Virus record (IMG/VR): IMGVR_UViG_3300027708_000012
Coordinates: 1-64,000 of that record
Strand: one strand, 5' to 3'
Length of the DNA: 64,000 nucleotides
Source: a virus
Within the stretch, counting starts at the first letter, position 1. Every line of letters begins with the position of its first letter. The notes beneath the pieces are model-generated. The model was given only the letters and a program-made list of their open reading frames with translations, did no database searches and was not told the DNA's origin. This document shows positions 12,929 through 64,000 of this stretch, piece after piece. The translations under genes were made by a program, and so were the position numbers.

Positions 12929-12957
12929 ATTATACTCTCTTTATACATTAATTGCAA
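12929..12957 (-). promoter_or_regulatory. Sigma70-type promoter for helicase
   Basis: Read on the minus strand: TTGCAA (12952-12957), 17 bp, TATAAT (12929-12934), with the ATG at 12923. It overlaps the 3' end of the carbamoyltransferase gene. Confidence 0.8.
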
Positions 12958-13888
12958 TGTGTTTGACAAGATCCCACTTATAATCCCATACTCTCTGTTT
13001 GGTATGATATAATACCGCTCCAATGCTACTACTAGGATCTCCTGGGTTAGGTAAACTCCATCGATATTTAAATTTAGATTCAACTACGTTTTTGTTGGCT
13101 TGACTATTCATAGCACAACCTCCCATGTAGACTAGACAGTCGGCGTTGGTTAGTTGTTTAGCTTTGAGCATGATACCAGATACTTGCTCCTCAAACACTA
13201 GTTGTACTGCGGCCGCCAGGTCACATTGTTCCTGTAAGGTAGTTAATTCATTAAGGTTCCAATTAAGGACTCCCTGATGAAAATTAGTATTACAGCGCAA
13301 TTCACCTGCATCAAAGTAACTTCTAACATACTGTAAAAATTTGTAAGGATCGCCTTGCTCTGCCATTTTTTGTAATAAGTATTCATCCTTGATAGGAGTC
13401 AAGCCAACAAATTGTGTAAAGGCACTATAAAATAATCCTAGACTATGTGGATAACTTCTGCTCCACACTTTCTTCATTTCACCGTGTAGCCCTTGCCATA
13501 TGGTAGCACATTCAAATTCTCCGATCGCATCGAGCACAACAATCGCACAATGATTAAACGGGCTTGTATAATAGCCAGCGGCAGCGTGACTACTATGATG
13601 AGGAGTATAAGAAACTTTTGCATATTTAAATTGTTTAAGATGACGTTTTGGTAGTGTAGACATATCAAACGCTGTACGATATTGTCCAGCATACAATTGT
13701 CTTGCTTTTTTAATCCACGGACGTTCGTACCAAAAAATACGATCCGGACTTCCATAGTTTAATGCTGGCACAGTTTGCGAACTATCTAGTTCGTCGTACT
13801 TGCTAATAGTCTGTGATACTAGTTTACCCTCTTTGAATACAGCAAGACTTGAGCCGTGATTAAGAGCATTTATCCCCCAGTGTATCAT
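12941..13888 (-). CDS. Short carbamoyltransferase-like protein (NodU/TobZ N-domain, 315 aa)
   Basis: MIHWGINALNHGSSLAVFKE matches the start of the NodU/CmcH/TobZ family, and YTPHHSSHAAAGYY (94-107) holds the HHxxHA motif that binds the metal and acyl-adenylate. LDAIGEFECATIW, LQKMAEQGDP and VYMGGCAMNSQANK are further family blocks. The YrdC-like C-terminal domain with its GPRALG motif, present in the second homologue at 62501, is missing: the frame ends after the first domain, at about half the usual length. Such one-domain forms would transfer carbamoyl but need another source of activated carbamoyl-AMP. Its start overlaps the 37-aa gene (ATGA). Confidence 0.85.
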   Translation of the reverse strand: MIHWGINALNHGSSLAVFKEGKLVSQTISKYDELDSSQTVPALNYGSPDRIFWYERPWIKKARQLYAGQYRTAFDMSTLPKRHLKQFKYAKVSYTPHHSSHAAAGYYTSPFNHCAIVVLDAIGEFECATIWQGLHGEMKKVWSRSYPHSLGLFYSAFTQFVGLTPIKDEYLLQKMAEQGDPYKFLQYVRSYFDAGELRCNTNFHQGVLNWNLNELTTLQEQCDLAAAVQLVFEEQVSGIMLKAKQLTNADCLVYMGGCAMNSQANKNVVESKFKYRWSLPNPGDPSSSIGAVLYHTKQRVWDYKWDLVKHIAINV

Positions 13889-40246: not shown

Positions 40247-40765
40247 CTAAATATAATTAAAATTTATTACCATACGATATTGTTGATCAGTACAACTAGT
40301 ACCACTGTGTTTTTCGTTTGCTGAAAATATTAACATACGATTTGCTACACTAGATACAATTTGTTTATCGTTTTCAAAAATAGTATATCCATCATTATCA
40401 TTGATATAAAACACAGCGGTTTTTGATATAGTTGTTACATCATCATATGGTATATCTGTATGGTATCCGTGAATTTGAACACTATCAGTTCTTGGATTTA
40501 TATTAGCTTTTATTTTTATAATGAGCCTAGGCGTCGGTTGAATTCTTGCTAACAGCGGTTCTATTAAATCAAAAGATTGAGTGTGCTGTCTAGGTGTTTT
40601 ATAAAAAGCGTGACAAAGTTGCCAGTTGTTGATTGCACCTGTTAGTATTGTATATGGTTCTTCCAATACAGCGTCGAGGAACCAAGGAAACATATTAGAC
40701 GTCATTACCTGTTGAATTTTTTCAAATTCAGCAACAGGAAGGAAGTTATCAATTATTTGTCTCAT
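40247..40765 (-). CDS. 2OG-Fe(II) oxygenase (172 aa)
   Basis: GYHTDIPYDD gives H102 and D104, EKHSGTS gives H153 and QQYRMVINF gives R164: a complete facial triad plus 2OG-binding arginine. AVFYINDNDGYTIFEND are the core strands. It has the same fold plan as 17963-18490, and the two are paralogues in size and motif spacing. It is the first gene after a sigma70-type promoter (40771-40799), thus probably expressed early or middle, and is followed nine nt later by dNMP kinase. Confidence 0.87.
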   Translation of the reverse strand: MRQIIDNFLPVAEFEKIQQVMTSNMFPWFLDAVLEEPYTILTGAINNWQLCHAFYKTPRQHTQSFDLIEPLLARIQPTPRLIIKIKANINPRTDSVQIHGYHTDIPYDDVTTISKTAVFYINDNDGYTIFENDKQIVSSVANRMLIFSANEKHSGTSCTDQQYRMVINFNYI

Positions 40766-50182: not shown

Positions 50183-51418
50183 TTAACGGACACCAGTGGT
50201 TTTTCTTGGGTAAGTTTGTCCTGTTACTGGGCGAAATCCGTAATTTTGTTTAGGAAATGTAGAACCAGTATGTATTGATTTATAAATGCTAGTTCCGTTA
50301 GGTGGTCCTAAGCCGGTTACAGCATCCCAGCCAACAGTTCCTGCGTATCCACTATTAATTACGGTATTATTTGTTCCTACAGTTATATCATAAAAAGCAC
50401 TGGTATTACCATATGCTATAGTATTCCAGTCAGCACTAGTTCGTCGAACTCCGGTGAGTTGTTGAAATCTAGCAAGCATACCTGCCATAGTTGGGCTTGA
50501 TAAACTAGTACCGCCATAGCCAGAAATTGATCCGTTATAATATAAAGCGTAAGCGTTCATAGGAGCTGAAAAATCAGGAGCACCTCGATTAGACAATGCT
50601 GTAGGACTACCTGTTACTCCGCTAGTAATAGGAGTATAGAATAAACCAGATTGCCAACTAGGTAATGAAAATACTGTACTTACGCCACCGCCACCGCCCC
50701 ATGTACTACCAAACGCACTGTCTCTATTATCATCGGTTTCTGTTAAACGTCCATTGCTACCATTTAGAGTAAGTTTAGTACCACCGACAGATATAACATT
50801 AGGGCTAGATGCTGGATAGCACAATCCAATAGTGCTACCAGTTGTTCCTACCACTGAACCCCAGTCACCCGACGCTGCAAGTACTGTTATTCCAGCATTA
50901 GTTGCATTGGTAAAATATTGTTCGTCCGATGTGTATTCATTAGTAGCCCAACTAATTGTAATAATGTGCATACCATCAGCAATTGCTTGTGTTAGCATAC
51001 TTTGGTATGTACTACCTATGTAGATAGTAATGCTAGCTTGCGGAGCCATAGTGGCCGCACAAAAAATATCTACAGTATTTTCTCCGCTTGCGCCATCGTG
51101 GAATGTATTTCCTCTTGAAAAAACACCAGTCTGACCGTCTAGTAATACTTGTGTAACTGTTGGTACTGCGTATGCTGAAGATAGTAGACCGGCTGATTGT
51201 AAGTCTGCCCATGATTTATTAAGATCAGATTGTAAAAATCCACCGCCAAAGCTGAGAATTCCGATCTTTACACCAAACCCAGAAGAACTAGGAATATTGT
51301 ATGCTATTGCAATTTGAGGAGGAGTAAGTCGGCCAGCAACTGGTAACGCAGATGGTGCTTGCCCTGTTGCGGGATCAATTAAATCTACTTCAAATAAATG
51401 TGCTGATTGAGCTTCCAT
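50183..51418 (-). CDS. Sedolisin-type (S53) serine-carboxyl peptidase (411 aa)
   Basis: All S53 active-site motifs are present: SGENTVDIF (E113, D117), AASGDWGS (oxyanion D185) and YGGTSLSSPT (nucleophile S305). The calcium site is suggested by FYDITVG (D344) and VGWDAVTGLG (D365). LTPPQIAIAYNIP (31-43) is the typical beginning of the mature catalytic domain, so the usual ~190-residue propeptide is missing; only 30 residues precede it. No secretion signal is seen. Placement between fibre genes and the giant structural protein suggests a virion-associated protease for host-surface proteins or for fibre maturation. Confidence 0.9.
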   Translation of the reverse strand: MEAQSAHLFEVDLIDPATGQAPSALPVAGRLTPPQIAIAYNIPSSSGFGVKIGILSFGGGFLQSDLNKSWADLQSAGLLSSAYAVPTVTQVLLDGQTGVFSRGNTFHDGASGENTVDIFCAATMAPQASITIYIGSTYQSMLTQAIADGMHIITISWATNEYTSDEQYFTNATNAGITVLAASGDWGSVVGTTGSTIGLCYPASSPNVISVGGTKLTLNGSNGRLTETDDNRDSAFGSTWGGGGGVSTVFSLPSWQSGLFYTPITSGVTGSPTALSNRGAPDFSAPMNAYALYYNGSISGYGGTSLSSPTMAGMLARFQQLTGVRRTSADWNTIAYGNTSAFYDITVGTNNTVINSGYAGTVGWDAVTGLGPPNGTSIYKSIHTGSTFPKQNYGFRPVTGQTYPRKTTGVR

Positions 51419-51453
51419 ATTAATTGCTTACCTAATGTTGATCAGCCAATATT

Positions 51454-52743
51454 TTAAGATTCTGTTTGTAATATAGTAAGTGTTACAGTTATAACTGAAG
51501 CAGATGCTCCGTTATTATAAATTTTAAGAGGAATACTAGTTGTAGGTGTTGCTTCACTACTATATCCCACAATTGCTGGACTAAAATATTGTGTAGTTCC
51601 TGTTGTTGAAATCATTTCTGCAATGACTCCTGAACCAGGAGTTGGATCAGTAGTAATAGCTCTGGATGCATCTGAAGTTCTTGCTGCGGTACTAGAATAA
51701 ACAGTAACCCAGGCACCATATGAAGTTTGAATACTATACAACATATAGCCTTTATAGCCAGTTATGGTATAGTTGGCACTAGATCCTGCCGCAATACTAC
51801 TAGTTGTGACTGATACAGATGTTCTACTAGCAGCAACAACCGTTACAGTTTGCGTTACCCAACTTAAAGATCCAGAACCGTTAGTAGTTAATACTTGCCC
51901 AGCTGTTCCTCCAGTTATTGATAAATTTCCAACAGGACCTAAATTAGTGGATCCAGTAAACGTGGTTTGACTATTAAATGTTACTGCATTACCAAATGAT
52001 AAAGCACCGCTAAAAGTTGCTCCGGCACTGAATGTAATAGCAGAACTAAAAATTGCACTTGAATTAAAAGTTACTGAAGAACTAAATGTAGTTGACCCGC
52101 TTACAGTTCCGCCAGTGAACAGTGGAATAACAGGTGGAGTAAATGTAAAAACACCAGATAAGTTATTATAAGATAAACCACCGCTTCCGCTTGCGGTTGC
52201 TGTAGACACACTAAGAGCTGTTAGCTGAATTCCCGACACCGCATTGCCAACTAAGTCTGCAGAAGGTATCCATTTTCCTTGAGATGTACTATATTTTAAT
52301 ACTTGACCGTCTGAAGGGCTTGTAATATTAACATCGGTCAATCCTGATAATGTAGTTGAACCGTTAATTGTAGTGCCGCCGCCGCCGCTTACTGTTGCCC
52401 AACTTAAAACACCATTCCCGTCAGTAGTTAATACTTGACCAGCGGTTCCTCCGGCAATCGTAACATTACTAATCAATCCTAAATTAGTTGTTCCTGTGTT
52501 CGATAACGGGCCAGAAATTGTCAATCCAGTTAGTGTTCCAAGTATATTAACAACACTAGAACCCAGTGTGGTCTGAGATAGTAAAGTTTGTCCAGCTGTG
52601 GTTATTTTTGCTCCGGATACTAGTTCAATCCTATTACCAGCCACTGTTAAGGTTTGCGTAATAAGATTTCCCGAAACGTCTACTAAAAAATACGGACTAG
52701 TAAATCCAGAGTCTGATCTAAATAATTTTGAAATAACAGTCAT
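51454..52743 (-). CDS. Tail-fibre-like protein (429 aa)
   Basis: MTVISKLFRSDSGFTSPYFL and repeated GGTAGQVLTTDGNGVLSWAT / GGTAGQVLTTNGSGSLSWVT units (two copies, about residues 97-116 and 280-299), plus a Phe/Ser-repetitive beta-helix (FSSSVTFNSSAIFSSAITFS). C-terminal 110 residues (GYKGYMLYSIQTSYGAWVTV) look like a compact tip domain. Trimeric fibre architecture is likely. It reads in the same direction as the two fibre genes upstream. Confidence 0.8.
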   Translation of the reverse strand: MTVISKLFRSDSGFTSPYFLVDVSGNLITQTLTVAGNRIELVSGAKITTAGQTLLSQTTLGSSVVNILGTLTGLTISGPLSNTGTTNLGLISNVTIAGGTAGQVLTTDGNGVLSWATVSGGGGTTINGSTTLSGLTDVNITSPSDGQVLKYSTSQGKWIPSADLVGNAVSGIQLTALSVSTATASGSGGLSYNNLSGVFTFTPPVIPLFTGGTVSGSTTFSSSVTFNSSAIFSSAITFSAGATFSGALSFGNAVTFNSQTTFTGSTNLGPVGNLSITGGTAGQVLTTNGSGSLSWVTQTVTVVAASRTSVSVTTSSIAAGSSANYTITGYKGYMLYSIQTSYGAWVTVYSSTAARTSDASRAITTDPTPGSGVIAEMISTTGTTQYFSPAIVGYSSEATPTTSIPLKIYNNGASASVITVTLTILQTES

Positions 52744-52758
52744 AGGTATACGATGCCT

Positions 52759-53442
52759 TTAAGCCAGGGCTACTGCAAATGCGGCTGCAATTTTTGTAGC
52801 ATATTGCACAGTTACTGCACTTGAATTACCTGCTGGTGCTGAAGACATCGACACTGAAGTAAATGTGCCGGGCGCAGGAGTGGTGCCACCAATTGCCACG
52901 TTGTTCATAGTCCCAGTAGCTGCACTTGTTATACTGATCACTCCGCTACCTGTTGTTGATAAACTGATATTATTTGCACCTGCTGCAAGTGTTACTTGGC
53001 CGCTTGTTGCTGACAAACTAGTAAACGCTCCGGACGCCGGGGTTGTTCCACCGATTGACATATTATTAATTGAACCGGTTGTTCCTGGATTAATAGTCAC
53101 CGATCCTGATCCGGTTGGAGAAATTGTAACACTGGCATTGGCTGGGCTAATTGAAACTGTAGAAGTTGCAGTTAATGTAGTAAAATTGCCAGGCTTTGGA
53201 GTTGATGCGCCAATAGTTACGTTATCTAATGTTCCAGCAACTGCTGGATTGATAAACACTGAGTTAGTAACCACAAGATTTGGTGTTGAAAAGTTGCTTT
53301 GTGACCCAATTGTCAGTGTATTAGTCAGCGGATTTGTTGAAATTGTAATACCGTTATTACCAACAACAGTTAATGTGTTGTTGGTAGCATTTAAGCTAAT
53401 TTGCGATTGGCTGGGCGAAGCAATGTATGTATATCCGTTCAT
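52759..53442 (-). CDS. Tail-fibre-like repeat protein (227 aa)
   Basis: Consists almost wholly of beta repeats with the motif NxxIGGTTPAPGTFTSVSM (copies at about residues 76, 129 and 190), alternating with 'ISTTGSGVISI'-like strands. MNGYTYIASPSQSQISLNAT starts it. It ends with a short hydrophobic segment (ATKIAAAFAVALA). Overlaps the upstream gene by four nt; a fibre shaft subunit by inference. Confidence 0.75.
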   Translation of the reverse strand: MNGYTYIASPSQSQISLNATNNTLTVVGNNGITISTNPLTNTLTIGSQSNFSTPNLVVTNSVFINPAVAGTLDNVTIGASTPKPGNFTTLTATSTVSISPANASVTISPTGSGSVTINPGTTGSINNMSIGGTTPASGAFTSLSATSGQVTLAAGANNISLSTTGSGVISITSAATGTMNNVAIGGTTPAPGTFTSVSMSSAPAGNSSAVTVQYATKIAAAFAVALA

Positions 53443-54632
53443 GCTGCTATTACTCCAAGTAATAATTTTGTTAAGTTACCTACTGTTATAAGACTAGTAG
53501 GAGTTGTTCCGGGATTGGTAATTTGTAAAGTAGTAAATGCACCACTTCTAGGTGTTGAGTTGCCTACTGTTATATTATTCATAGATCCGCGTGTACCAGA
53601 AGATGCACTAAATGTTGAACTACCAGTGGTTGATATTGTAAAATTTTGATTAGTCGAAACTAAACTTGTTGCATTGTTGGATGACAATGCGGTAAATGCC
53701 GCTGATTTTGCAGAGTTGGCACCTATTGTCATACTATTAATCGATCCTGTTGCACCGGATGACATTACCACAGCGCCTGTTCCTGTTGGAGATATTGTAA
53801 TCAACTGATTAACGCCAGTAGCAATTACAGTGCTGGATGACAGCGACGTAAACGTAGCTGGTTTTGCAACTAGAGATCCAATTGTGGTATTATCAATACT
53901 GGATGTACTAACAGCCGTTATGTTTATAGAATTATTAACAGTCAAGTTAGGAATGTTGCCCAACGTGGTAAATGTTATAGTATTTGTACTAGTATTAGTT
54001 GTAATACCAATACTGGTATCGGTATTTACAAAATTAATAGTGTCTAATATAAAACCTGCTGACAGGATTGCTTGCCCTGGTACTATTACTTGTGCAATAT
54101 TACTGAGAAATACACGGCCATAACTGTCAAGAGTTACACCAGGTAATGCGCTGCCAGTCCAATTAAGCCCAGTGCCTATTTGGCCTCCGGTACTGTCTGT
54201 TTCACCTGTGGTAGAATGTATTTCTAAGTTATTAACCCGCTGACTGTATGTTGCGTTTAGTACAAGATTGACACCTAATAATGGTGTAGTGCCGTTGGCA
54301 GCATAATACGGGCTTGCTATCAAATTCACTACTGAATTAGTAACTGTTGCAGTATATTGAACTAGATCTCTTCCTAAATTTGTGCGACCGTATACAGTTA
54401 TTGACGCTTGATCGTCCCTTGCAGATAGTAATATTTCTACATGTTCTATATCATCTTTACCGTATTCTACTGCTATTTTATAACTTGCACTTTTAAAGTC
54501 TTGGAGATACCAACTATCTATTACAGTATTTGGTGCAATAGAGAACATCTTTCCTTGGAAGGAAAATCCGGTCCTGTCTCTAAATTTTAGAGTATTACCC
54601 AGGCCTTTTATAAAATAATCAGTAAAATTCAT
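53439..54632 (-). CDS. Tail-fibre-like protein with structured N-domain (397 aa)
   Basis: Residues 1-170 form a distinct domain (MNFTDYFIKGLGNTLKFRDR; WYLQDFKSASYKIAVEYGKD), like attachment domains of aquatic phage fibres. Residues 200-397 contain 'IGxxxxxxxxFTxL' repeats (TTIGSLVAKPATFTSLSS; MTIGANSAKSAAFTALSS; ITVGNSTPRSGAFTTLQI) shared with the gene at 52759. Late box upstream at normal distance. Confidence 0.8.
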   Translation of the reverse strand: MNFTDYFIKGLGNTLKFRDRTGFSFQGKMFSIAPNTVIDSWYLQDFKSASYKIAVEYGKDDIEHVEILLSARDDQASITVYGRTNLGRDLVQYTATVTNSVVNLIASPYYAANGTTPLLGVNLVLNATYSQRVNNLEIHSTTGETDSTGGQIGTGLNWTGSALPGVTLDSYGRVFLSNIAQVIVPGQAILSAGFILDTINFVNTDTSIGITTNTSTNTITFTTLGNIPNLTVNNSINITAVSTSSIDNTTIGSLVAKPATFTSLSSSTVIATGVNQLITISPTGTGAVVMSSGATGSINSMTIGANSAKSAAFTALSSNNATSLVSTNQNFTISTTGSSTFSASSGTRGSMNNITVGNSTPRSGAFTTLQITNPGTTPTSLITVGNLTKLLLGVIAA

Positions 54633-54747: not shown

Positions 54748-55137
54748 ATGAGCAGACAAGAAGGCATGGTTACTAAAGGTTGGGGGTATGAGCTTATTTG
54801 GGCTACTAACGATCATTATTGCGGCAAAATAATGGTTTTTACAGATGCAGGGTCAAAATTTAGTATGCATTTTCACAAAGAAAAAACTGAAACTTGGTTT
54901 GTAAATTCAGGTAAATTTATTCTAAGATACATAGATACAACAAATGGTGCTTTAATTGAGCGCAATCTTGATCAAGGAGATGTGTGGCACAATAATCCTT
55001 TGCAACCACACCAATTAGAAGCACTATTGCCCGGGAGTACAATTCTAGAAGTTAGTACAGCAGATTCTGTAGAAGACAATTATAGAATTGTGCCCGGCGA
55101 TAGTCAGCTTACGCCCGAGTTGAAAAATCAAAGTTAA
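54748..55137 (+). CDS. Cupin-domain protein (129 aa)
   Basis: Cupin motif 1 is HFHKEKTETWFVNSGKF (H-x-H-x4-E-x6-G, about residues 41-57) and motif 2 is GDVWHNNPLQPHQLEA (75-90). VTKGWGYELIWA near the start is typical of mannose-6-phosphate-isomerase-like cupins. The metal-binding His/Glu set is intact. It might isomerise or epimerise a sugar, or dioxygenate a small molecule; substrate unknown. It opens the tailoring cluster. AAGGAACAAGT precedes the ATG. The 3' end overlaps the convergent 2OG-like gene by 29 nt. Confidence 0.82.
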   Translation: MSRQEGMVTKGWGYELIWATNDHYCGKIMVFTDAGSKFSMHFHKEKTETWFVNSGKFILRYIDTTNGALIERNLDQGDVWHNNPLQPHQLEALLPGSTILEVSTADSVEDNYRIVPGDSQLTPELKNQS

Positions 55138-55690
55138 TAACTATTCTATAATCTTCTTCAGTCGGTGAAGAATCTGAATAATACTGAGCTCCGTCAAAAC
55201 AGACAAACCTGTTGGCTTTTGCTTCTACTTCTTTAGCTACTGTAGAGATACCGTTATATTTTTCCTTAAAACATCCATGACTAGCATCTTTAAAATCTTT
55301 GTATTTAGAAATATCTGTGTGAAAATCGTAAGTTTCGTTGAAGATTTTGGTAGATGCGGTCGAGTCTGTTAGATACAATATTGCCGATGTATGTGGAAAC
55401 GGAATATTGATAGTTGGATTATCTACATAAGGTTTATCAGTTTTAGTTTGCATAGTAACCTGTATCCTAAAAATCTCATCAACTTGCGCTCCGGTCTGTT
55501 CAACAGCTGCAAACAATAATGGTTCCAATGTACTGGCAAAGGGTGTATATTTTTGGCCGTTGTCTAAAGGTACATTTGTGAAAATAGCAGGTTTATTTTT
55601 ATTAAAGTTCCACGGAAATGAATGAAATTCCACAATGTCAGTAACCAGTTTAAACACCGATGATGAAAGTAAATTATCAATTATAATCAT
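55109..55690 (-). CDS. 2OG-oxygenase-fold protein with lost iron ligands (193 aa)
   Basis: ILYLTDSTASTKIFNETYDF, FVCFDGAQYYSDSSPTEED and YRIVINFDFS align well with the oxygenases at 17963 and 40247, and R182 of the 2OG site is kept. However, the distal histidine (H153 there) is Tyr171 here, and the first ligand position reads YVD (Y88-x-D90) or, in another alignment, TIN. An active Fe(II) centre is therefore doubtful. It is next to, and in the same direction as, two halogenase-like genes. It may be a partner or substrate-binding pseudoenzyme; it resembles the oxygenase-like proteins that accompany halogenase genes in some bacteria (DUF6445-like, low confidence). Confidence 0.75.
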   Translation of the reverse strand: MIIIDNLLSSSVFKLVTDIVEFHSFPWNFNKNKPAIFTNVPLDNGQKYTPFASTLEPLLFAAVEQTGAQVDEIFRIQVTMQTKTDKPYVDNPTINIPFPHTSAILYLTDSTASTKIFNETYDFHTDISKYKDFKDASHGCFKEKYNGISTVAKEVEAKANRFVCFDGAQYYSDSSPTEEDYRIVINFDFSTRA

Positions 55691-55700
55691 GTTATATCCT

Positions 55701-57185
55701 TTAGTTGTTTAAAATAGAGTCAACCCACTGTCTGTGATCTACAGGATTTTGGTGTACACTATTTTTTATTTGTTGATTTGTGTGAGATACTTGTTCAGCA
55801 TATTTTTGTAACCACTTAGTGGTTAAATATTTTTTTATATTTTCTTGATTATCATATTTTCCATGACCGTAAGCAATACAGTTAAAATTCATGGATGTAA
55901 ACATTTTTACATCTGAAGTAGATATACTATCAAAATTATTTAAATAACTTGTTGACATTTTTTCTTCTAAATCTAATAACCAGTCTGGTTTATTGTTGGT
56001 TAAATATCTCCAAAATTCAGAATCTGTTCTATTGGTATTATAAAAATGCCTTACATATTCAAAACTATTTGTATACACATCCTGAAGTACTTTATTGTAA
56101 GATCTACGATCCATTGGTAACGGACTAAAATTGTTAAGTTTGGTCATAATATCTAATTGAAGATATGTATGATGTAAACTAGTAGCCTCTAACGGCTCCA
56201 CAAACCCGCTGGCTAGTCCGATTGCAACACAATTTCCAATCCAAGATTCTTTAAAATAACCATTATTAAATTTAATAACTCTGTCTGATTGTAATTCAAC
56301 ATTGTGATTTTTTAATAACCATGCGTTAAAATCTATTTTAGCTTCTTCGTCGGTCATGAACTTACTTGAATAAACATAGCCAGTGCCTCGACGATTACTT
56401 AACGGAACATCTAATATCCAGCCATTTTTAGTAGCTTCAGCTGTTGTGTAGGGTGGAATATAATCATAATGTTTAAATATTGGGTTAGGAATTGTTCTAT
56501 CTGTGGGTAATTGTTCAGATATATCAATCCATTCGGGATTAAGTTGGCTAATCAATGCTCGTTGATATCCTGTACAATCTACAAATAAATCGGCTGTGAT
56601 AATTTCGCCAGTGTTTAATCTAATACTTTTAATATTATTATTTTCTACTTCAACGTTTTCTACAATAGCATCAATTGTTTTAATACGGTCTTTAAATTTT
56701 TTCTCAATATATCTTCCAACTAATGTAGCATCTACATGCAATGCATGACGATATAATAAATTATTAGCATCAGGAATTACATTATTTTCAAAATAAAATT
56801 TACTATAACCTTGTCCGCCATCATAAGTTCCATTAGCCATGTCGTAAGCGTCTAGTAAATTAAATTGTTGTGCTACTCTGTCAAGCCGATTCATGCATTC
56901 GTTAACAGGAAAATTATGAAACCACCAATGATCAGGTTTAGTCCAATTTTTAAATTTTAATCCTAATTTAATTGTAGCATTACAATGCTTAACTAATTCT
57001 ACTGTTGTAACTCCAACTCCCCTGAGGTAATTATCAAACATCATAGTAAGGCTTTCGCCAACGCCAATTCCTGGTTTACTATGATCGTAAATAGACACTA
57101 CTTCAACTAATTCGCCCCAATAACTTTTAAAATAAGTCGACGCCATTACTCCGGCTGTGCCTCCACCGATGACTACTATTTTCAT
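55701..57185 (-). CDS. Flavin-dependent tryptophan-halogenase-like protein A (494 aa)
   Basis: MKIVVIGGGTAGVMASTYFK is the FAD-binding GxGxxG. GVGESLTMMF and NATIKLGLKFKNW (catalytic-type lysine K73) are family motifs, as is AIGLASGFVEPLEATSLHHT. The diagnostic WxWxIP motif is altered to WILDVP (256-261). Tryptophan halogenases chlorinate or brominate aromatic rings with FADH2, oxygen and halide; the altered motif leaves halogenation uncertain and monooxygenation possible. Length is normal. It overlaps halogenase-like B by four nt (ATGA), and the pseudo-oxygenase follows. Confidence 0.88.
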   Translation of the reverse strand: MKIVVIGGGTAGVMASTYFKSYWGELVEVVSIYDHSKPGIGVGESLTMMFDNYLRGVGVTTVELVKHCNATIKLGLKFKNWTKPDHWWFHNFPVNECMNRLDRVAQQFNLLDAYDMANGTYDGGQGYSKFYFENNVIPDANNLLYRHALHVDATLVGRYIEKKFKDRIKTIDAIVENVEVENNNIKSIRLNTGEIITADLFVDCTGYQRALISQLNPEWIDISEQLPTDRTIPNPIFKHYDYIPPYTTAEATKNGWILDVPLSNRRGTGYVYSSKFMTDEEAKIDFNAWLLKNHNVELQSDRVIKFNNGYFKESWIGNCVAIGLASGFVEPLEATSLHHTYLQLDIMTKLNNFSPLPMDRRSYNKVLQDVYTNSFEYVRHFYNTNRTDSEFWRYLTNNKPDWLLDLEEKMSTSYLNNFDSISTSDVKMFTSMNFNCIAYGHGKYDNQENIKKYLTTKWLQKYAEQVSHTNQQIKNSVHQNPVDHRQWVDSILNN

Positions 57186-58654
57186 AATGTATTTTCTCTT
57201 ATAAATGTCAATGCTTTTTTATGTGATATAACTTCAGAATTATCAGCTTTATAGTATTCAGTAAGCTCGTCTATAATCCGATCAGCTCGATTTTTAATTT
57301 CCTGATCTTGGGAGTCAAATTCTTTTAATATTGAATCAATATTAAATAATTTTAAACCATGCAATACTAATAGAAAATGTAATTCTTTAAACAGCACGTA
57401 TCTGCTAAGTCCTGAAAAATCTTCTCGTATGGGCAACTTAGTTTTCCAAACATTCATTTTTTGTTTTAGACTTTCCGGTAAAGGTACATTAGAAATTTTT
57501 TGCCAAAAAGCTGTATCTTGTCTCGGTGTTACAAAATGTAAAACAATAAAATCTCGAATATTTTCTATAATGTCATTAAAAGATTTATTATAATTTGCTA
57601 TTACAGTCTCATTATAATTTACTAATTTATGCATTAACATAAATGTTTGCTGGATAGTGGTACCAATGCTAGAAGCTTCTAGAGGCTCCACAAAGCTACT
57701 ACTGAGCCCGATTGCACAACAATTATTAATCCATGCTCGGTCCACGGAACCTGGGTCAAACTTAATATGTTTACCTAACGTAATCGGTGTTCCTAGAAAT
57801 TCTTCTACCTCTTGTTGGGCTTGTTCTGGAGTTAAGAACTCATCATCATAAATGTATCCGTTACCCCAACGACCGTATGTTGGAGTGCTGAACATCCACC
57901 CATATTTCATTGCTTGAGATAACGACCACATGTTATAGTTGTCTGTGTCAGACGTTTGAAATACAATTGCTGAATTAGTTTTTAAATACTTGCTATGGCT
58001 TATCCACTTTGCACCCATTTTAGAAATTAATATTTTTTTAAAGCCAGTACTATCTATATAAAAATTGCTTTTATAAGTAGAAGTAGTGCTAGCAATATAA
58101 TCTATTTCGCCAGCTTCATTTAAAATAACATCAGTTATTTCATCGTTGATAATTTCAATTCCTTTATCTGTAGCAATTTTAGATAAAAATTCATTTAACT
58201 TAAAAGTATTAAAATGGTATTGCGCCACTGGGGACTGGTTTTCTTTCAGGTAACGTGAATTTAATTTATTTTTCCAGAATGACTCTCCAGATAATTTACT
58301 AGATTCAAATCCTTGTGAAATTAACCTGCCGTAGATGTACGGGTATTCGCCCACTAGTTCATCGTATCCATTTTGAATGCTGTGCATATAATCAGGAACA
58401 CCCCAGTCTTTAAATACAATTCCAATTTTAAATGTTGCATCTGTTTGTTTAATCATGTCTGCAAGATTTATTCCTACAAAAGAAGCAAACTCGTGCCAGT
58501 GTTCAGTTGATCCTTCCCCTACTCCAATTATACCAATTTTTTTAGAGCAAATTATTGAAATATTATAATCTGGAAATCGTGTTTTTAAAATCAAAGCAGA
58601 AATCAACCCGGCAGTTCCGCTGCCGACTACATTGATTTTAAATTTTTCATTCAT
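57182..58654 (-). CDS. Flavin-dependent tryptophan-halogenase-like protein B (490 aa)
   Basis: INVVGSGTAGLISALIL is the dinucleotide-binding fold; GVGEGSTEHWHEF and DATFKIGIVFKDWG hold the catalytic-type lysine (K76); AIGLSSSFVEPLEASSIGTT is the conserved late motif. WxWxIP is changed to WMFSTP (253-258). It is about as distant from protein A as expected for old paralogues. The C-terminal 90 residues are charged and Leu-rich. It is first in the minus-strand unit (B, A, pseudo-oxygenase), divergent from halogenase C. A good -10 box (TATAAT) lies about 25 nt upstream. Confidence 0.88.
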   Translation of the reverse strand: MNEKFKINVVGSGTAGLISALILKTRFPDYNISIICSKKIGIIGVGEGSTEHWHEFASFVGINLADMIKQTDATFKIGIVFKDWGVPDYMHSIQNGYDELVGEYPYIYGRLISQGFESSKLSGESFWKNKLNSRYLKENQSPVAQYHFNTFKLNEFLSKIATDKGIEIINDEITDVILNEAGEIDYIASTTSTYKSNFYIDSTGFKKILISKMGAKWISHSKYLKTNSAIVFQTSDTDNYNMWSLSQAMKYGWMFSTPTYGRWGNGYIYDDEFLTPEQAQQEVEEFLGTPITLGKHIKFDPGSVDRAWINNCCAIGLSSSFVEPLEASSIGTTIQQTFMLMHKLVNYNETVIANYNKSFNDIIENIRDFIVLHFVTPRQDTAFWQKISNVPLPESLKQKMNVWKTKLPIREDFSGLSRYVLFKELHFLLVLHGLKLFNIDSILKEFDSQDQEIKNRADRIIDELTEYYKADNSEVISHKKALTFIRENTL

Positions 58655-58748
58655 CTTGATTTCCTGATTTTTGTATGCTATTATATAGTCATAACCTAGT
58701 AGGGTGCATAAAATTTATGATAATTACTTTACTAGAAAGGCAATCAAG

Positions 58749-60344
58749 ATGAGAACAAAAATCGACAAAATAGTTGTATTAGGAGGAGGATCTGCTGGTT
58801 GGATGACTGCCTCTACGCTTATTAATTTTTTTCCTGAAAGAGAAATTGTCGTAATCGAAAGTCCCGATATGCCTATTGTGGGCGTGGGAGAAAGCACTCT
58901 AGGAACTATAAGACATTGGATGTATTCACTAGGAATTGATGAAAAAGATTTCATGAAATACACTAATGCTTCTTACAAAATGAGTATTAAGTTTACTGAT
59001 TTTTATGAAAAAGATGCAGGATCTTTTCATTACCCGTTTGGAGCTCCAGTTTTAACAGATGCGCCAAACGGACTTCAGGAGTGGCAAGCTAAACGTGCGC
59101 TTTATCCAGATACACCTGTTGAAGATTATTGTAGAACTTATCTTTCTAACATGCCGTTAATCGAGTCTAATAAATTTAGTAAAAACGAGCATGGACTATT
59201 TGATGAGTATCGTCCAGAAATGCATGTTGCATATCACTTTGATGCGGTATTATTTGGTCGATGGCTTAAAGAAAGTTACAGTTTACCTAAGGGTGTAAAA
59301 TTAATTACAGGCACAGTTACTGATGTTTCAACATCTGAAATTGGTATTGATAAATTAACATTATCTGACGGAACAGAAGTTACTGCAGATTTATTTGTAG
59401 ATTGTACTGGCTGGAAAAGCATGTTGCTAGCAGGTGCATTGAAAGAACCGTTTAAATCTTATGCAGACATCTTGCCAAGTAATCGAGCATGGGCATGCCA
59501 GGTTCCGTATGTTGATAAGGAAAAAGAACTTGAACCGTATACTAACTGTACCGCAATTGGTCACGGTTGGTGCTGGAATATTCCATTATGGACTAGACTA
59601 GGAACAGGTTATGTATACAGCGATAACTTTATTTCTCCAGAAGATGCTAAAGAAGAATTTAAACAATATCTAATGAGTGATAAAATGGCTGTTCCTCGAA
59701 CACAGGAGCAAGTAGATACTTTAGAGTTTAGAGATATTCCTATGCGAGTTGGAATACACGAACGTACTTGGGTTAAAAATGTGGTGGCAATAGGGTTGAG
59801 TGCTGGATTTATTGAACCGTTAGAAAGTAATGGATTATATTCAGTACATGAATTTTTGTTATCTTTAGTATCTGTTTTACAAAGAACACATATTACCCAA
59901 TGGGATAGAGACGTTTATAATTCACAAGTCGGTGGTACATTTAATACATTTGCTGAATTTGTTTCTCTTCATTATGCATTGAGTATCAGAGACGATACTA
60001 ATTTCTGGGATAACATAACGTCAAAAACGTTTTGCCCAGGAATAGTAGACATGTCAATTAAAAGTACAAGTAATACTTTTTTTGATTTAGCCTGGAGGAA
60101 ACTTGCTGTTTTTAGGCATAACGAGCAGGGCGGTTTACAATATGTTGCAACAGGTATGCATTTTCATATAATGAGTAAATTGCAGTTATTGTATGCCGAG
60201 AGAGCGTTTAGGCAAAATCCCAAGAACGAAGTCAACGAATTTGTACGCAAACGTGCAATACTTCAAAAAAAATGGCAACGTGCAGCTGAATTGTGCCCTA
60301 GTTTATATCAATATTTAAAGGATAATGTACACAATGACGAGTGA
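58749..60344 (+). CDS. Flavin-dependent halogenase C with intact WxWxIP (531 aa)
   Basis: IVVLGGGSAGWMTASTL (GxGxxG), VGVGESTLGTIRHW, SYKMSIKFTDF (catalytic-type lysine K77), WCWNIP (274-279, full WxWxIP) and AIGLSAGFIEPLESNGLYSV are all present. It is therefore the best candidate in the cluster for a true halogenase. A cyanophage halogenase of this family (VirX1) has been shown to iodinate and brominate aromatic substrates. The ATG at 58749 is preferred to a GTG at 58704, because AAAGG at 58736-58740 is well placed. It overlaps the next gene. Confidence 0.92.
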   Translation: MRTKIDKIVVLGGGSAGWMTASTLINFFPEREIVVIESPDMPIVGVGESTLGTIRHWMYSLGIDEKDFMKYTNASYKMSIKFTDFYEKDAGSFHYPFGAPVLTDAPNGLQEWQAKRALYPDTPVEDYCRTYLSNMPLIESNKFSKNEHGLFDEYRPEMHVAYHFDAVLFGRWLKESYSLPKGVKLITGTVTDVSTSEIGIDKLTLSDGTEVTADLFVDCTGWKSMLLAGALKEPFKSYADILPSNRAWACQVPYVDKEKELEPYTNCTAIGHGWCWNIPLWTRLGTGYVYSDNFISPEDAKEEFKQYLMSDKMAVPRTQEQVDTLEFRDIPMRVGIHERTWVKNVVAIGLSAGFIEPLESNGLYSVHEFLLSLVSVLQRTHITQWDRDVYNSQVGGTFNTFAEFVSLHYALSIRDDTNFWDNITSKTFCPGIVDMSIKSTSNTFFDLAWRKLAVFRHNEQGGLQYVATGMHFHIMSKLQLLYAERAFRQNPKNEVNEFVRKRAILQKKWQRAAELCPSLYQYLKDNVHNDE

Positions 60345-60942
60345 AATCTATCCGTTATTTTCTAAACCTGTTTTTATATGCAACGAATATCTTGACAGAA
60401 AAAGATTTGATGCTGAGATTGACTATGTTAAAAATCTAGAATTTAGAACAAACGAAAACGGAAATTTGGCTAGTTTAGATACAGATATTTTAGAAAATAA
60501 AGAATTATGTGAAATTAAAAAAATTGTTGAATTTGCAATTAATGAATACACAAAAAAGATTATGTTTTGGGATGAAAATACATTTTATATAACTCAGTCT
60601 TGGGCAAATATTACTAAACCATCAACTAGTCACCATAAGCATTATCACTTTAATAGTTTAATCAGCGGAGTATTTTATCTAAGTACAATTAAAGAAGATA
60701 ACATTGTATTTTTTACCGATGATAAAAAGACTATTAGTTTAGAAAGCAGTAATTATGGAATATTTAACTCGACTAGTTTTAAAATTGCGATTAATAATAA
60801 TTCAGTAGTAGTATTTCCGTCTTCTCTTATACATGGTGTCGAAGTTAATAACACAGATGAAGAAAGAATTAGCATTGCGTTCAATGTATTTGTTAAAGGT
60901 GCATTAGGCTCAAAAGAAAAATTAACATATTTAGAAATATAA
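60334..60942 (+). CDS. 2OG-Fe(II) oxygenase, TIGR02466-like (202 aa)
   Basis: SWANITKPSTSHHKHYHFNS then LISGVFYLS is the 'SW.N......H..H.H.NS..SGV.Y' signature of the TIGR02466 family, and FPSSLIHGVEVNNTDEERIS holds the distal histidine and 2OG arginine. The start is ATG 60334 (MTSEIYPLF), inside the end of halogenase C; an ATG three codons earlier is possible. Paralogue: 61879. It may hydroxylate a product of the neighbouring enzymes. Confidence 0.83.
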   Translation: MTSEIYPLFSKPVFICNEYLDRKRFDAEIDYVKNLEFRTNENGNLASLDTDILENKELCEIKKIVEFAINEYTKKIMFWDENTFYITQSWANITKPSTSHHKHYHFNSLISGVFYLSTIKEDNIVFFTDDKKTISLESSNYGIFNSTSFKIAINNNSVVVFPSSLIHGVEVNNTDEERISIAFNVFVKGALGSKEKLTYLEI

Positions 60943-60946
60943 AATT

Positions 60947-61882
60947 ATGAAAAGAAATACAGCATTTTTTATTAACGGTGGTGCAGGAAGAATTATATGT
61001 TCAATTCCTGCGTTTGAACTGTACGAAAAAGAAAATCCGGATGACGATTTTATTATTATTATCGAGTATGGTATTGATCTCTTTAAGGGACATCCTACAT
61101 TATTCAAAAGATGCTATGACTATGCTCATAGAAATTTATTTCGAGACAAGTTAGTAGATATGAATTTTGTGTCGCCAGAGCCATACCAAGTCTGGGAATA
61201 TTATAATCAAAAAGCTAGTATTTCTCAAGCATTTGATTTGCTAATAAACAAAAAAGATCTCAGATATCTCCCTCCTCCTAAGCTAGTATTAAGCAATGAA
61301 GAATTGTTTGGCGGTATTGAAACTTTGAATACCGTCAAAAAAGAAAGTAAAAATAAGAAAGTTGTAATTTTTCAGCCTTTTGGTCGAGGATCTAATCTGA
61401 CTAAGGAGCAAACTACTCCTGATATTTACGGTAAATCTTTTATTATGGACGATGTTATATCAATAGTGCAAAAATTAGAAAAAAAATATACAGTAGTTGT
61501 CATGAGTGAAAATGCTATAGATTTTAAAAATATTTGTGGTCAGGATTTTAATCAAATCACAAATATTAACTTACGCAAATGGTTTGGATTAATAAACGCA
61601 GCTGATTATTTTTTAGGATGTGATAGTGTAGGACAGCATATTGCATATGCCCTTTCTAAACCTGCCACCGTGGTGCTTGGTTCGACATTTAAAGAAAATG
61701 TATCGTATCCTGGATGCGATAGATTTGATATAATTGATTTTGGTGAAAATCGAAGAATGTACAGTCCTATTCGTATGTCTCTTGACGAAGTAGCAGATTC
61801 AAATAATGAAAGCATGATGAGAGTTACTCCTGATCAAATCGAAACCGTAATTAATTCTGTTGTTAAAAATATATCCAAATGA
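60947..61882 (+). CDS. GT9-like (heptosyltransferase-fold) glycosyltransferase (311 aa)
   Basis: FFINGGAGRIICSIPAFELY resembles the N-terminal GT-B loop of ADP-heptose transferases (GD.ll..P.), and VVIFQPFGRGSN and LINAADYFLGCDSVGQHIAY followed by SKPATVVLGST fit the C-terminal donor-binding half ('..d s...H.A.a...p.v.lfG.t'). Roles could be modification of LPS, a protein or a small molecule. It is four nt after one oxygenase and overlaps the other by four, so all three genes are coupled. Confidence 0.75.
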   Translation: MKRNTAFFINGGAGRIICSIPAFELYEKENPDDDFIIIIEYGIDLFKGHPTLFKRCYDYAHRNLFRDKLVDMNFVSPEPYQVWEYYNQKASISQAFDLLINKKDLRYLPPPKLVLSNEELFGGIETLNTVKKESKNKKVVIFQPFGRGSNLTKEQTTPDIYGKSFIMDDVISIVQKLEKKYTVVVMSENAIDFKNICGQDFNQITNINLRKWFGLINAADYFLGCDSVGQHIAYALSKPATVVLGSTFKENVSYPGCDRFDIIDFGENRRMYSPIRMSLDEVADSNNESMMRVTPDQIETVINSVVKNISK

Positions 61883-62493
61883 TTAAACAATCTACTCTTT
61901 ATCCATTATTTCCTACTATAGTTTATAAGAGCTCATTAGGTAGAGAATTAACATCATCCGAGGTTACTGAAATTTATTCTACCGAGGTTCTTGAACAAGG
62001 ATTAGGCAATGATATATCTAACAATAGTTGGATACTTGATAACCCTATATTTTCAAATTTAAAAAACGAGTTAATGTTACACGTACATTCTTATATGAAA
62101 GAGTTAATGAAAATTGAAGTAGATCTGTACATGACTAATTCTTGGATTAATGTTACTGGTTTTCAAAAACAACATTCTGCGCACAGTCATACTAACAGTA
62201 TATTATCGGGTGTGTATTATTTTAAAACTAGCGATAGTCAACCAAGTATATCATTTAATCGATTAACTCCGCCATTTTTCTTAAACATGAAATCTACTGA
62301 ATATACACCTGCTAATTCTATTGAATGGACAGTACCGGTTGAAGACGGTGAGATTATTATATTTCCTAGTACTTGTTTTCATTATGTAAAACCAAACTTA
62401 ACACAGAATGAAAGAATTAGCATTGCATTTAATACATTTGCACGAGGAACGATTGGTTCTGAAGTTCCAGGCGCAGATTTAGAATTAAAATAA
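61879..62493 (+). CDS. 2OG-Fe(II) oxygenase, TIGR02466-like (204 aa)
   Basis: SWINVTGFQKQHSAHSHTNS, then ILSGVYYFKTS, gives the histidine cluster (H99, H102, H104), and FPSTCFHYVKPNLTQNERIS the distal histidine and arginine. It is clearly a paralogue of the protein at 60334, sharing the end pattern 'ISIAFN.F..G..GS'. Having two copies flanking a glycosyltransferase suggests two oxidation steps or two substrates. The next gene begins seven nt downstream. Confidence 0.85.
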   Translation: MIKQSTLYPLFPTIVYKSSLGRELTSSEVTEIYSTEVLEQGLGNDISNNSWILDNPIFSNLKNELMLHVHSYMKELMKIEVDLYMTNSWINVTGFQKQHSAHSHTNSILSGVYYFKTSDSQPSISFNRLTPPFFLNMKSTEYTPANSIEWTVPVEDGEIIIFPSTCFHYVKPNLTQNERISIAFNTFARGTIGSEVPGADLELK

Positions 62494-62500
62494 GGTTATT

Positions 62501-64000
62501 ATGAAAAAAACATCGTGGATTGCAGGAGTTACTCGAGGGCATAATGCTAGTGTATGCTTGCTCAAAGACGGAGAAATAGTATTTTCTATCGAAGAAGAAA
62601 GACTAAGTCGTAAAAAATACGACGGCGGCCCGTTTGCTGCAATGTTAAAAATACTTGATTATACAGATAAATTAGATTATATTGTAATTGCACATACACA
62701 AAGTTTAAAAGACACTGCTGGTAAAATTGATTTTACAGGCGATGACGTTTATACAGGCCTAGCACGTAAACTAGGATTAATTGATCGTAAAGCAGACATT
62801 TATAATCATCCACAAGTTATTGATTTAAGTCATATACATCATAAATTGCATGCAGCGTGTGCATTTTATCGATCTGGATTTACTGAAGCAGTTGCAGTAA
62901 TTGTTGATGGCGCTGGAACTTTTATTCCATTGAATCTAGGTAATGAAAATGTAACTGGATGGGAAACTGAAAGTATATACACTTGTAATTATCCAAGTAA
63001 ATTTAGTACGCTTTATAAGCATATTGGTGTACGTGGGCCGGCACCCGGTTACTTAATTCAAGATTTTGATAGCGGTTTGTACGATGAGCCGGGTAAGACG
63101 CATCACGCTTTAATTACAGATCGAGCAGGCATTACTAAAACATACGAAGCTGTAACTCAATATTGCGGTTGGAGTCCTATTGAAGCTGGTAAAACTATGG
63201 GGTTATTTCCTTATGGTAAAGATAATCCTGCAATACCTCCACTTTTTGATGATACAAGTATAGCACCTCTTGCTAATAGAAATATTGTAGTACCAACATA
63301 CCCTAACGGTGCATTGATTAATACTGGATTATTTGAATTTTTAGATCAACATAATAATGATGATTTGACAATGCTAGAAAATCGAAGAGATCTTGCATAT
63401 GCTTGCCAGACACAAACACAATCTCAAGTTGTTAAATTAATTCAACAAGCCGTAGATATAAGCGGACATAAAAATGTTGTGTTAAGCGGCGGGTATGGAT
63501 TAAATTGTGTTGCTAATTATCATTACCTACAAGCTCTTAAAGACAACGGTATTAATTTCTATGTAGAACCTATTAGTAATGATGCTGGTACCGCTATTGG
63601 AGCAGCTCTAATGCATTGGCATTCATTAACAGGAAATCGTACTCCAGCAAAACATGATACATTGTATTTAGGCCCAGCTCATAGTTACACAACGGAACAA
63701 GTTATCGATATATCAATGCAACATGATGTTGAAATACAAGATGCTACTTATAGTGATATTGTAGAGTTATTAACTAAGAAAAACATTGTCACATTATTCC
63801 AAGGCTCTAGCGAAAACGGGCCACGGGCATTAGGAAATAGAAGTGTATTATTTGATCCACGGTTTGAAGATGGAAAAGATTTTGTTAATGGTGTAAAACA
63901 TCGTGAATATTTCCGACCATTTGCTGGTAGTATTTTAGCAGAATATGCTAAAGAGTGGTTTGATTTACGTGGCATGGAAGACAGTCCTTTTATGATGTAT
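62501..64000 (+). CDS. Full-length carbamoyltransferase, partial at window edge (NodU/TobZ type)
   Basis: MKKTSWIAGVTRGHNASVCL, SHIHHKLHAACAFYRSG (HHxxHA, H113-H114-H117) and GLFPYGK belong to the catalytic domain. VLSGGYGLNCVAN and the YrdC-like C-domain motif ENGPRALGNRS (about 437-447), then FRPFAGSIL, are present, so ATP- and carbamoyl-phosphate-dependent carbamoyl transfer to a hydroxyl group is expected. 500 codons are seen with no stop; the usual length is 550-600. A strong start site is seen (TAAGGTTATT before ATG). It is the last gene of the plus-strand tailoring unit. Confidence 0.92.
   Translation, partial: MKKTSWIAGVTRGHNASVCLLKDGEIVFSIEEERLSRKKYDGGPFAAMLKILDYTDKLDYIVIAHTQSLKDTAGKIDFTGDDVYTGLARKLGLIDRKADIYNHPQVIDLSHIHHKLHAACAFYRSGFTEAVAVIVDGAGTFIPLNLGNENVTGWETESIYTCNYPSKFSTLYKHIGVRGPAPGYLIQDFDSGLYDEPGKTHHALITDRAGITKTYEAVTQYCGWSPIEAGKTMGLFPYGKDNPAIPPLFDDTSIAPLANRNIVVPTYPNGALINTGLFEFLDQHNNDDLTMLENRRDLAYACQTQTQSQVVKLIQQAVDISGHKNVVLSGGYGLNCVANYHYLQALKDNGINFYVEPISNDAGTAIGAALMHWHSLTGNRTPAKHDTLYLGPAHSYTTEQVIDISMQHDVEIQDATYSDIVELLTKKNIVTLFQGSSENGPRALGNRSVLFDPRFEDGKDFVNGVKHREYFRPFAGSILAEYAKEWFDLRGMEDSPFMMY

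Follow-up and report, generated by a model that had tools for sequence, protein, structure and literature searches.

Known tailoring clusters and the gene island of the freshwater phage

A described counterpart of the gene island analysed here is a 10-gene cluster of the cyanophage S-SSM6a, which comprises genes encoding carbamoyltransferases, a halogenase, 2-oxoglutarate-dependent (2OG) oxygenases and a cupin, and which was proposed to be involved in capsule decoration or in the formation of a halogenated secondary metabolite (PMC7824862, 2021). The prnA and carbamoyltransferase genes of cyanophages have been tabulated, some of these phages carrying two prnA copies (PMC3037559), and the role of the halogenase has been called speculative (PMC2984593). 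The island described here is located at positions 54748-64000 of the record IMGVR_UViG_3300027708_000012 (345,369 bases) of a giant phage from freshwater, the first 64 kb of which are referred to as the window. We tentatively interpret the island as a virion-tailoring module which would modify fibre proteins by O-carbamoyl-heptose, hydroxylation and halogenation.

Two divergent and tightly packed gene runs were recognised in the island based on the open reading frame (ORF) list, Pfam, PHROGs and NCBIfam, and its nine ORFs have the coordinates and families given in the original prediction, which had been made from the DNA letters. The minus strand carries a 2OG-oxygenase-fold protein (phrog_274, 55109-55690) and the flavin halogenase-like genes A (55701-57185; PF04820, 1.4e-84) and B (57182-58654; PF04820, 3.1e-84). 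The plus strand carries a cupin (phrog_7851, 54748-55137; PHROG E-value 1.6e-35), the VirX1-like flavin halogenase-like gene C (58704-60344; PF04820, 9e-107; the likely true start is the ATG at 58749), the 2OG-Fe(II) oxygenase OX1 (60325-60942; PF13759, 1.2e-19), a glycosyltransferase (GT) of the GT-B/GT9-like type (phrog_8954, 60947-61882, 311 aa), the second oxygenase OX2 (61879-62493; PF13759, 6.5e-21) and an O-carbamoyltransferase of the NodU/TobZ type (CARB, 62501-64000, continuing to record position 64291). The predicted tight spacing within both strands was borne out by overlaps of 4 nt (B/A), 20 nt (C/OX1), 4 nt (GT/OX2) and 1 nt (CARB/D) and by gaps of 4 nt (OX1-GT) and 7 nt (OX2-CARB). 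The gene set is present as it had been described, but it extends past the window with the halogenase-like gene D (record 64291-65475, plus strand), and a further halogenase-like gene, E (record 308497-309642), adjoins a second carbamoyltransferase gene elsewhere. These are the five PF04820 proteins of the whole record.

The second cluster of S-SSM6a and S-SSM7 shares with the island the carbamoyltransferases, the halogenase, the 2OG oxygenase, the cupin, the sugar-nucleotide genes and the phrog_8954 GT, and in S-SSM7 (L010) it is likewise positioned beside fibre genes, ahead of gp13. The joint occurrence of carbamoyltransferase, halogenase, 2OG oxygenase and cupin which marks the published cluster (PMC7824862) is found in the island as well. 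However, S-SSM6a and S-SSM7 belong to a different lineage, have one halogenase in the cluster as opposed to four in the present island and one elsewhere in the record, and contain the heptose genes inside the cluster, whereas these are situated about 200 kb away in the present record. The novelty that had been seen in the multiple halogenases could not be upheld, since tandem copies are also found in syn9 and S-RIM44 and a similar cluster was published in 2021 (PMC7824862). The island is a larger member of a known cyanophage cluster type, in another lineage. New are the orthologous sets of divergent halogenases, the assignment of a heptosyltransferase, the link to ADP-heptose, the comparison of fibre proximity with control loci and the lost iron site of an oxygenase-fold protein.

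Conservation of the gene order and phage lineage

The conservation of the island was assessed in 80 IMG/VR loci which contain relatives of halogenase C or were reached through the GT; the family labels of the loci derive from single-pass profile searches, iterated profiles having drifted. The order C-OX-GT-OX-CARB is kept in ten contigs beyond the window's own, two of which possibly represent one phage and one of which has an additional oxygenase, and most of the ten also have A, B and D nearby. With this order recurring and the halogenases A-C sharing 54-67% identity with their counterparts in these contigs, a chance arrangement is excluded. The co-occurrence in relatives on which the original prediction had been made to depend is thus found, and the assumption that the gene set is unique to the present phage was rejected, as relatives occur in other phages and contigs. 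Near-identical DNA was not detected among phage records.

The large terminase shares 52% identity with those of Pseudomonas jumbo phages from the Paride/PA5oct group and 33% with that of the cyanophage S-RIM44, so that the designation T4-like holds loosely. The local order of a structural gene, the tail-sheath stabiliser gene (gp15) and a Nudix gene is shared by Paride (Arenbergviridae), in which the tailoring genes are not annotated at this site. Since the terminase is nearest to Pseudomonas jumbo phages and yet the carbamoyltransferase is 64% identical to that of the marine cyanophage S-SSM7, the module has, judged by these identities, probably moved between phage lineages.

Halogenases

Against PF04820, the cut-off of which is 21, the proteins A-C reach 284-358 bits, and all five halogenase-like proteins A-E carry this domain together with the FAD-binding GxGxxG motif. 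The catalytic lysine (Lys79 of PrnA) is conserved in all 141 distinct halogenases compared, including the five of the record. The catalytic glutamate (Glu346 of PrnA) is present in 133 of the 141 and is kept in A, B, C and E. In D it is replaced by phenylalanine, and D may therefore lack halogenation activity.

The best match of halogenase C in the PDB is the marine viral halogenase VirX1 (6qgm, E-value 2e-99), with which it shares the lysine, the Glu-Ser pair and the GWxWNIP motif (Lys92, Glu374 and GWCWNIP in C). A and B differ from VirX1 by an alanine following the glutamate and an altered GWxWxIP motif, and D lacks the glutamate.

The mutual identity of A, B and C amounts to 24-26%, whereas the A orthologues in the ten other contigs are 54-60% and the B orthologues 61-66% identical, each forming a fully supported clade. 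Given these values, A, B and C are, as far as can be judged from the sequences, old enzymes which have each been kept separately, and recent duplication was rejected. D is less conserved than A-C (37-40% identity). A flavin reductase of the family PF01613 was not matched in the 345-kb record, which is possibly incomplete, and the supply of reduced flavin (FADH2) would consequently fall to the host.

The gene E and the second carbamoyltransferase gene (L009 8498-11660, record 308.5-311.7 kb) are located between HesB-like/IscU-like genes and nrdAB. One of the 80 NrdA loci fetched has the same pair; it belongs to the closest relative (L219).

Glycosyltransferase, carbamoyltransferase and the link to ADP-heptose

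The phrog_8954 protein had no Pfam hit, and a phmmer search against the PDB sequences gave no hit. Its AlphaFold2 (AF2) model (predicted local distance difference test, pLDDT, 90.2) was matched by Foldseek to TibC (1.5e-9), WaaF (2.4e-9), the GT9 protein 3tov (3.3e-9) and WaaC (3.6e-8), and the top 30 matches were all TibC, WaaF, GT9 or WaaC chains. NCBIfam gave weak matches to an RfaQ-like family (1.3e-4) and to heptosyltransferase III. The designation GT9-like is thus backed by the fold and by these matches, while Pfam lends it no support. Its CDSxGQH motif resembles the DSGxMH motif of GT9. Unlike the GT9 heptosyltransferases of the lipopolysaccharide (LPS; WaaC, WaaF, RfaQ), with which it shares the GT-B fold, the phrog_8954 family is nearly confined to phages.

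TibC belongs to the bacterial autotransporter heptosyltransferases, heptosylates adhesins and has a solved structure (PMC4358343). It is the top fold match, and adhesin-like neighbours and ADP-heptose genes are present in the record. However, the identity in the fold alignment is about 13%, the secondary structure of the model shows no N-terminal beta-barrel, and C225 is the sole near-invariant cysteine where TibC has a four-cysteine iron finger. Membership in the TibC family was rejected on the grounds of the missing finger and barrel.

At 261.0-263.0 kb the record encodes homologues of heptose-7-phosphate kinase, of heptose-1-phosphate adenylyltransferase and of ADP-heptose 6-epimerase, each the best in its class. 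The NCBIfam families matched by the ADP-heptose genes of the record are TIGR02197 (7.7e-61), TIGR02198 (5.6e-44) and TIGR02199 (4e-38). In the cyanophages P-SSM2, S-CAM1 and S-SSM7 the ADP-heptose genes adjoin the phrog_8954 and carbamoyltransferase genes. An HldE adenylyltransferase scoring >100 bits was detected in 18 of 27 GT-positive contigs as opposed to none of 15 GT-negative ones (Fisher 1.4e-5), a comparison limited by the relatedness and incompleteness of the contigs. Taking into account the fold of the model, the ADP-heptose genes in the record and beside the GT in cyanophages, and the pairing with the carbamoyltransferase, phrog_8954 is probably a heptosyltransferase of the ADP-heptose type, with the use of ADP-heptose deduced from the gene context.

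The carbamoyltransferase has a full length of 596 aa (L007 12502-14292) and consists of PF02543 and PF16861 domains, in which the HHxxH motif and the residues of the C-terminal domain are conserved, so that it belongs to the same two-domain family as TobZ, GdmN and NodU. The GT lies within three genes of a carbamoyltransferase in 40 of 42 cases. WapO is a putative carbamoyltransferase for the heptose of Pseudomonas LPS (PMC8005017). Based on the heptose genes, the pairing of both enzymes and the precedent of carbamoylated heptose in Pseudomonas LPS, we infer by analogy that carbamoyl-heptose would be the product.

Oxygenases and cupin

The two PF13759 oxygenases score 71 and 75 bits (cut-off 27), and OX1 falls just under the cut-off of TIGR02466 (61.7 versus 62.5). 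Among 62 members of the PF13759 family, the candidate metal-ligand residues H106, H108 and H170 are present without exception (100%) and R181 is conserved in 93%, and the pair starting at 60325 and 61879 retains the family-conserved histidine and arginine residues.

The oxygenase-fold call for the protein encoded at 55109-55690 was confirmed by its AF2 model (pLDDT 94.5), the fold of which matches prolyl hydroxylases. However, T93, N95 and Y171 are found where H, D and H are kept in 55 of 56 relatives. Since all three iron ligands are replaced, the protein is probably inactive as an iron oxygenase, as judged from its sequence. The pattern of phrog_274 in the 55 of 56 relatives is HDHR, and as its members combine an HxD-H-R pattern with a 2OG-oxygenase fold, the PHROG 274 label DNA endonuclease V looks wrong and the family is better described by the fold. 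The phrog_7851 family of the cupin also occurs in the heptose clusters of P-SSM2, S-CAM1 and L087; the cupin is possibly of the sugar-isomerase type.

Proximity to fibre genes

Fibre genes were found on both flanks of the island. The left flank (50183-54632, minus strand) was assigned by repeat composition and PF00082 and comprises an S8 peptidase (subtilase)-like protein amid the fibre genes (50183-51418) and three repeat fibre proteins (51454-54632), while the minus-strand fibre array continues past D (L007 from 15523, and L008). Within 5 kb, a fibre-like gene was present at 21 of the 46 loci of halogenase C, at 11 of the 15 with a lone halogenase and at 26 of the 32 GT loci, as compared to none of 25 terminase and none of 42 NrdA control loci. 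Matches were counted to fibre seeds taken from other loci only; since these seeds came from halogenase and GT neighbourhoods, the contrast with the controls would be smaller in a blind test. Independently of the seeds, PHROG profiles identified tail fibre proteins adjacent to the lone halogenases of L069, L077, L056 and L088.

A search of 84,980 species genomes for the GT gave 8 matches. A carbamoyltransferase is encoded beside or near the GT in 7 of these 8, and 5 of the 8 contigs (L298-L302) contain fibre-like genes, which would be expected if phage contigs had been binned with cells. These cellular relatives were rejected as a pointer to the acceptor, the eight places being mostly phage-like contigs. 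A phage-only GT beside fibre genes fits better with a virion target than with host LPS.

Near D, a fibre-like protein is encoded whose C-terminal part is rich in Gly, Cys and Tyr (L007 16175-17971, minus strand); it is a candidate substrate by position alone. Two fibres of about 2000 aa (L008 3-11906, minus strand) contain aromatic G-D-x-V-x-Y-G-G repeat modules resembling carbohydrate-binding repeats.

Proposed role of the island

In the proposed scenario the module would be expressed late, together with the structural genes. The HldE/HldD-like enzymes of the phage would supply ADP-heptose, host enzymes filling in the missing steps, and the phrog_8954 GT would transfer the heptose onto its acceptor. 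The carbamoyltransferase would then modify a hydroxyl group of the sugar, as WapO putatively does, the 2OG oxygenases would hydroxylate side chains, perhaps creating acceptor hydroxyls, and halogenases A-C would halogenate or oxidise aromatic residues. Tail-fibre or adhesin proteins of the phage would be the most likely acceptor, and the fibres might thereby be changed in receptor binding, stability or shielding. The halogenation of a virion protein would be, to our knowledge, the first known case.

Several observations weigh against this scenario. As modelled, the GT is devoid of both the N-terminal barrel and the iron finger of TibC; the HldE/HldD matches remain under the NCBIfam equivalog cut-offs; and the isomerase GmhA had no match in the record. 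The P values overstate independence because many contigs are related. Most marine GT-carbamoyltransferase loci are without halogenases in the fetched stretch, so that halogenation and glycosylation may have different targets. The late-promoter sequence TATAAATA was not found ahead of the operons; its two copies in the window are fewer than expected by chance, and late promoters of this type were rejected as drivers of the operons.

The main rival is the modification of host LPS, in which the GT and the carbamoyltransferase would add carbamoyl-heptose to the host surface during infection, as a protection against superinfection or against adsorption to debris, the oxygenases and halogenases acting on the same surface molecules or on others. 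The GT fold also matches WaaF and WaaC, the acceptor proposed for WapO is an LPS heptose, the hosts of the cultured phages closest by terminase are Gram-negative, and such a role is favoured for the LPS-type genes of such phages (PMC7824862, PMC7029224), which likewise counts against a fibre target. On the other hand, the GT family is almost without cellular members in LPS clusters, the genes are situated in the fibre region and aromatic halogenation has no obvious target in LPS, and we regard the host surface as a less likely site of action than the fibres.

Alternatively, an insertion-tolerant boundary between fibre and neck genes may have gathered unrelated tailoring genes, each working alone. 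In cyanophages this region varies, with the enzymes occurring in many combinations, and Paride has the local gene order described above without annotated tailoring genes. The carbamoyltransferase is 64% identical to its S-SSM7 counterpart as opposed to 44% for the GT, so that the parts may move separately. Such an assembly seems improbable, however, with ten contigs preserving the order of the five-gene core at identities of about 60% and with the GT paired with a carbamoyltransferase so regularly.

In a further alternative, the enzymes would decorate an amino acid or a sugar from the host and so yield a secondary metabolite carrying halogen and carbamoyl groups. Such a pathway was proposed for S-SSM6a (PMC7824862) and is in line with the same enzyme classes tailoring antibiotics (structures of TobZ, GdmN and decarbamoylnovobiocin carbamoyltransferase), but it is improbable here, since the scaffold domains sought, PF00668 (non-ribosomal peptide synthetase condensation) and PF00109 (ketosynthase), had no match in the possibly incomplete 345-kb record, the packed operons leave almost no space for a precursor-peptide gene, and the proximity to fibres persists in phages with a lone halogenase. 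The original prediction thus retains its coordinated tailoring module beside fibre genes and its co-occurrence in related phages, but its antibiotic-like or small-molecule pathway found no direct support.

If the fibre proteins are indeed modified, this would give viral halogenases, which have been studied as biocatalysts and for which we found no natural substrate in the literature consulted, their natural substrate. The links to fibres and to ADP-heptose make this question directly testable by mass spectrometry of virions. The wider idea that aquatic phages make decorated fibres by means of their own ADP-heptose, a phage-only heptosyltransferase, carbamoyl-heptose and divergent halogenases together with 2OG oxygenases appears doubtful. 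Apart from the acceptor, phrog_8954 (T4-GC 302), annotated as hypothetical, gains a probable function, and in phrog_274 the DNA endonuclease V label gives way to a 2OG-oxygenase fold.

Related genes outside the island

The ADP-heptose genes are part of a region (L136 5014-18900, record 261-275 kb) in which 27 tRNA genes are interleaved with the heptose genes and which contains about nine 2OG-oxygenase-like genes. Among assemblies with archaeal or bacterial names, the phrog_8954 genes mentioned above are found in L298-L304, of which those with fibre genes (L298-L302) appear to be misbinned phage contigs. Intact paralogues of the phrog_274 protein exist, one of them within the window at 40247-40765 (minus strand). 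Furthermore, the window contains at 12941-13888 (minus strand), between a DnaB-like helicase gene and a primase-like gene, a gene for a 315-aa protein which, of the carbamoyltransferase domains, has the N-terminal one alone (PF02543, 1.4e-28) and is possibly involved in DNA or nucleotide modification.

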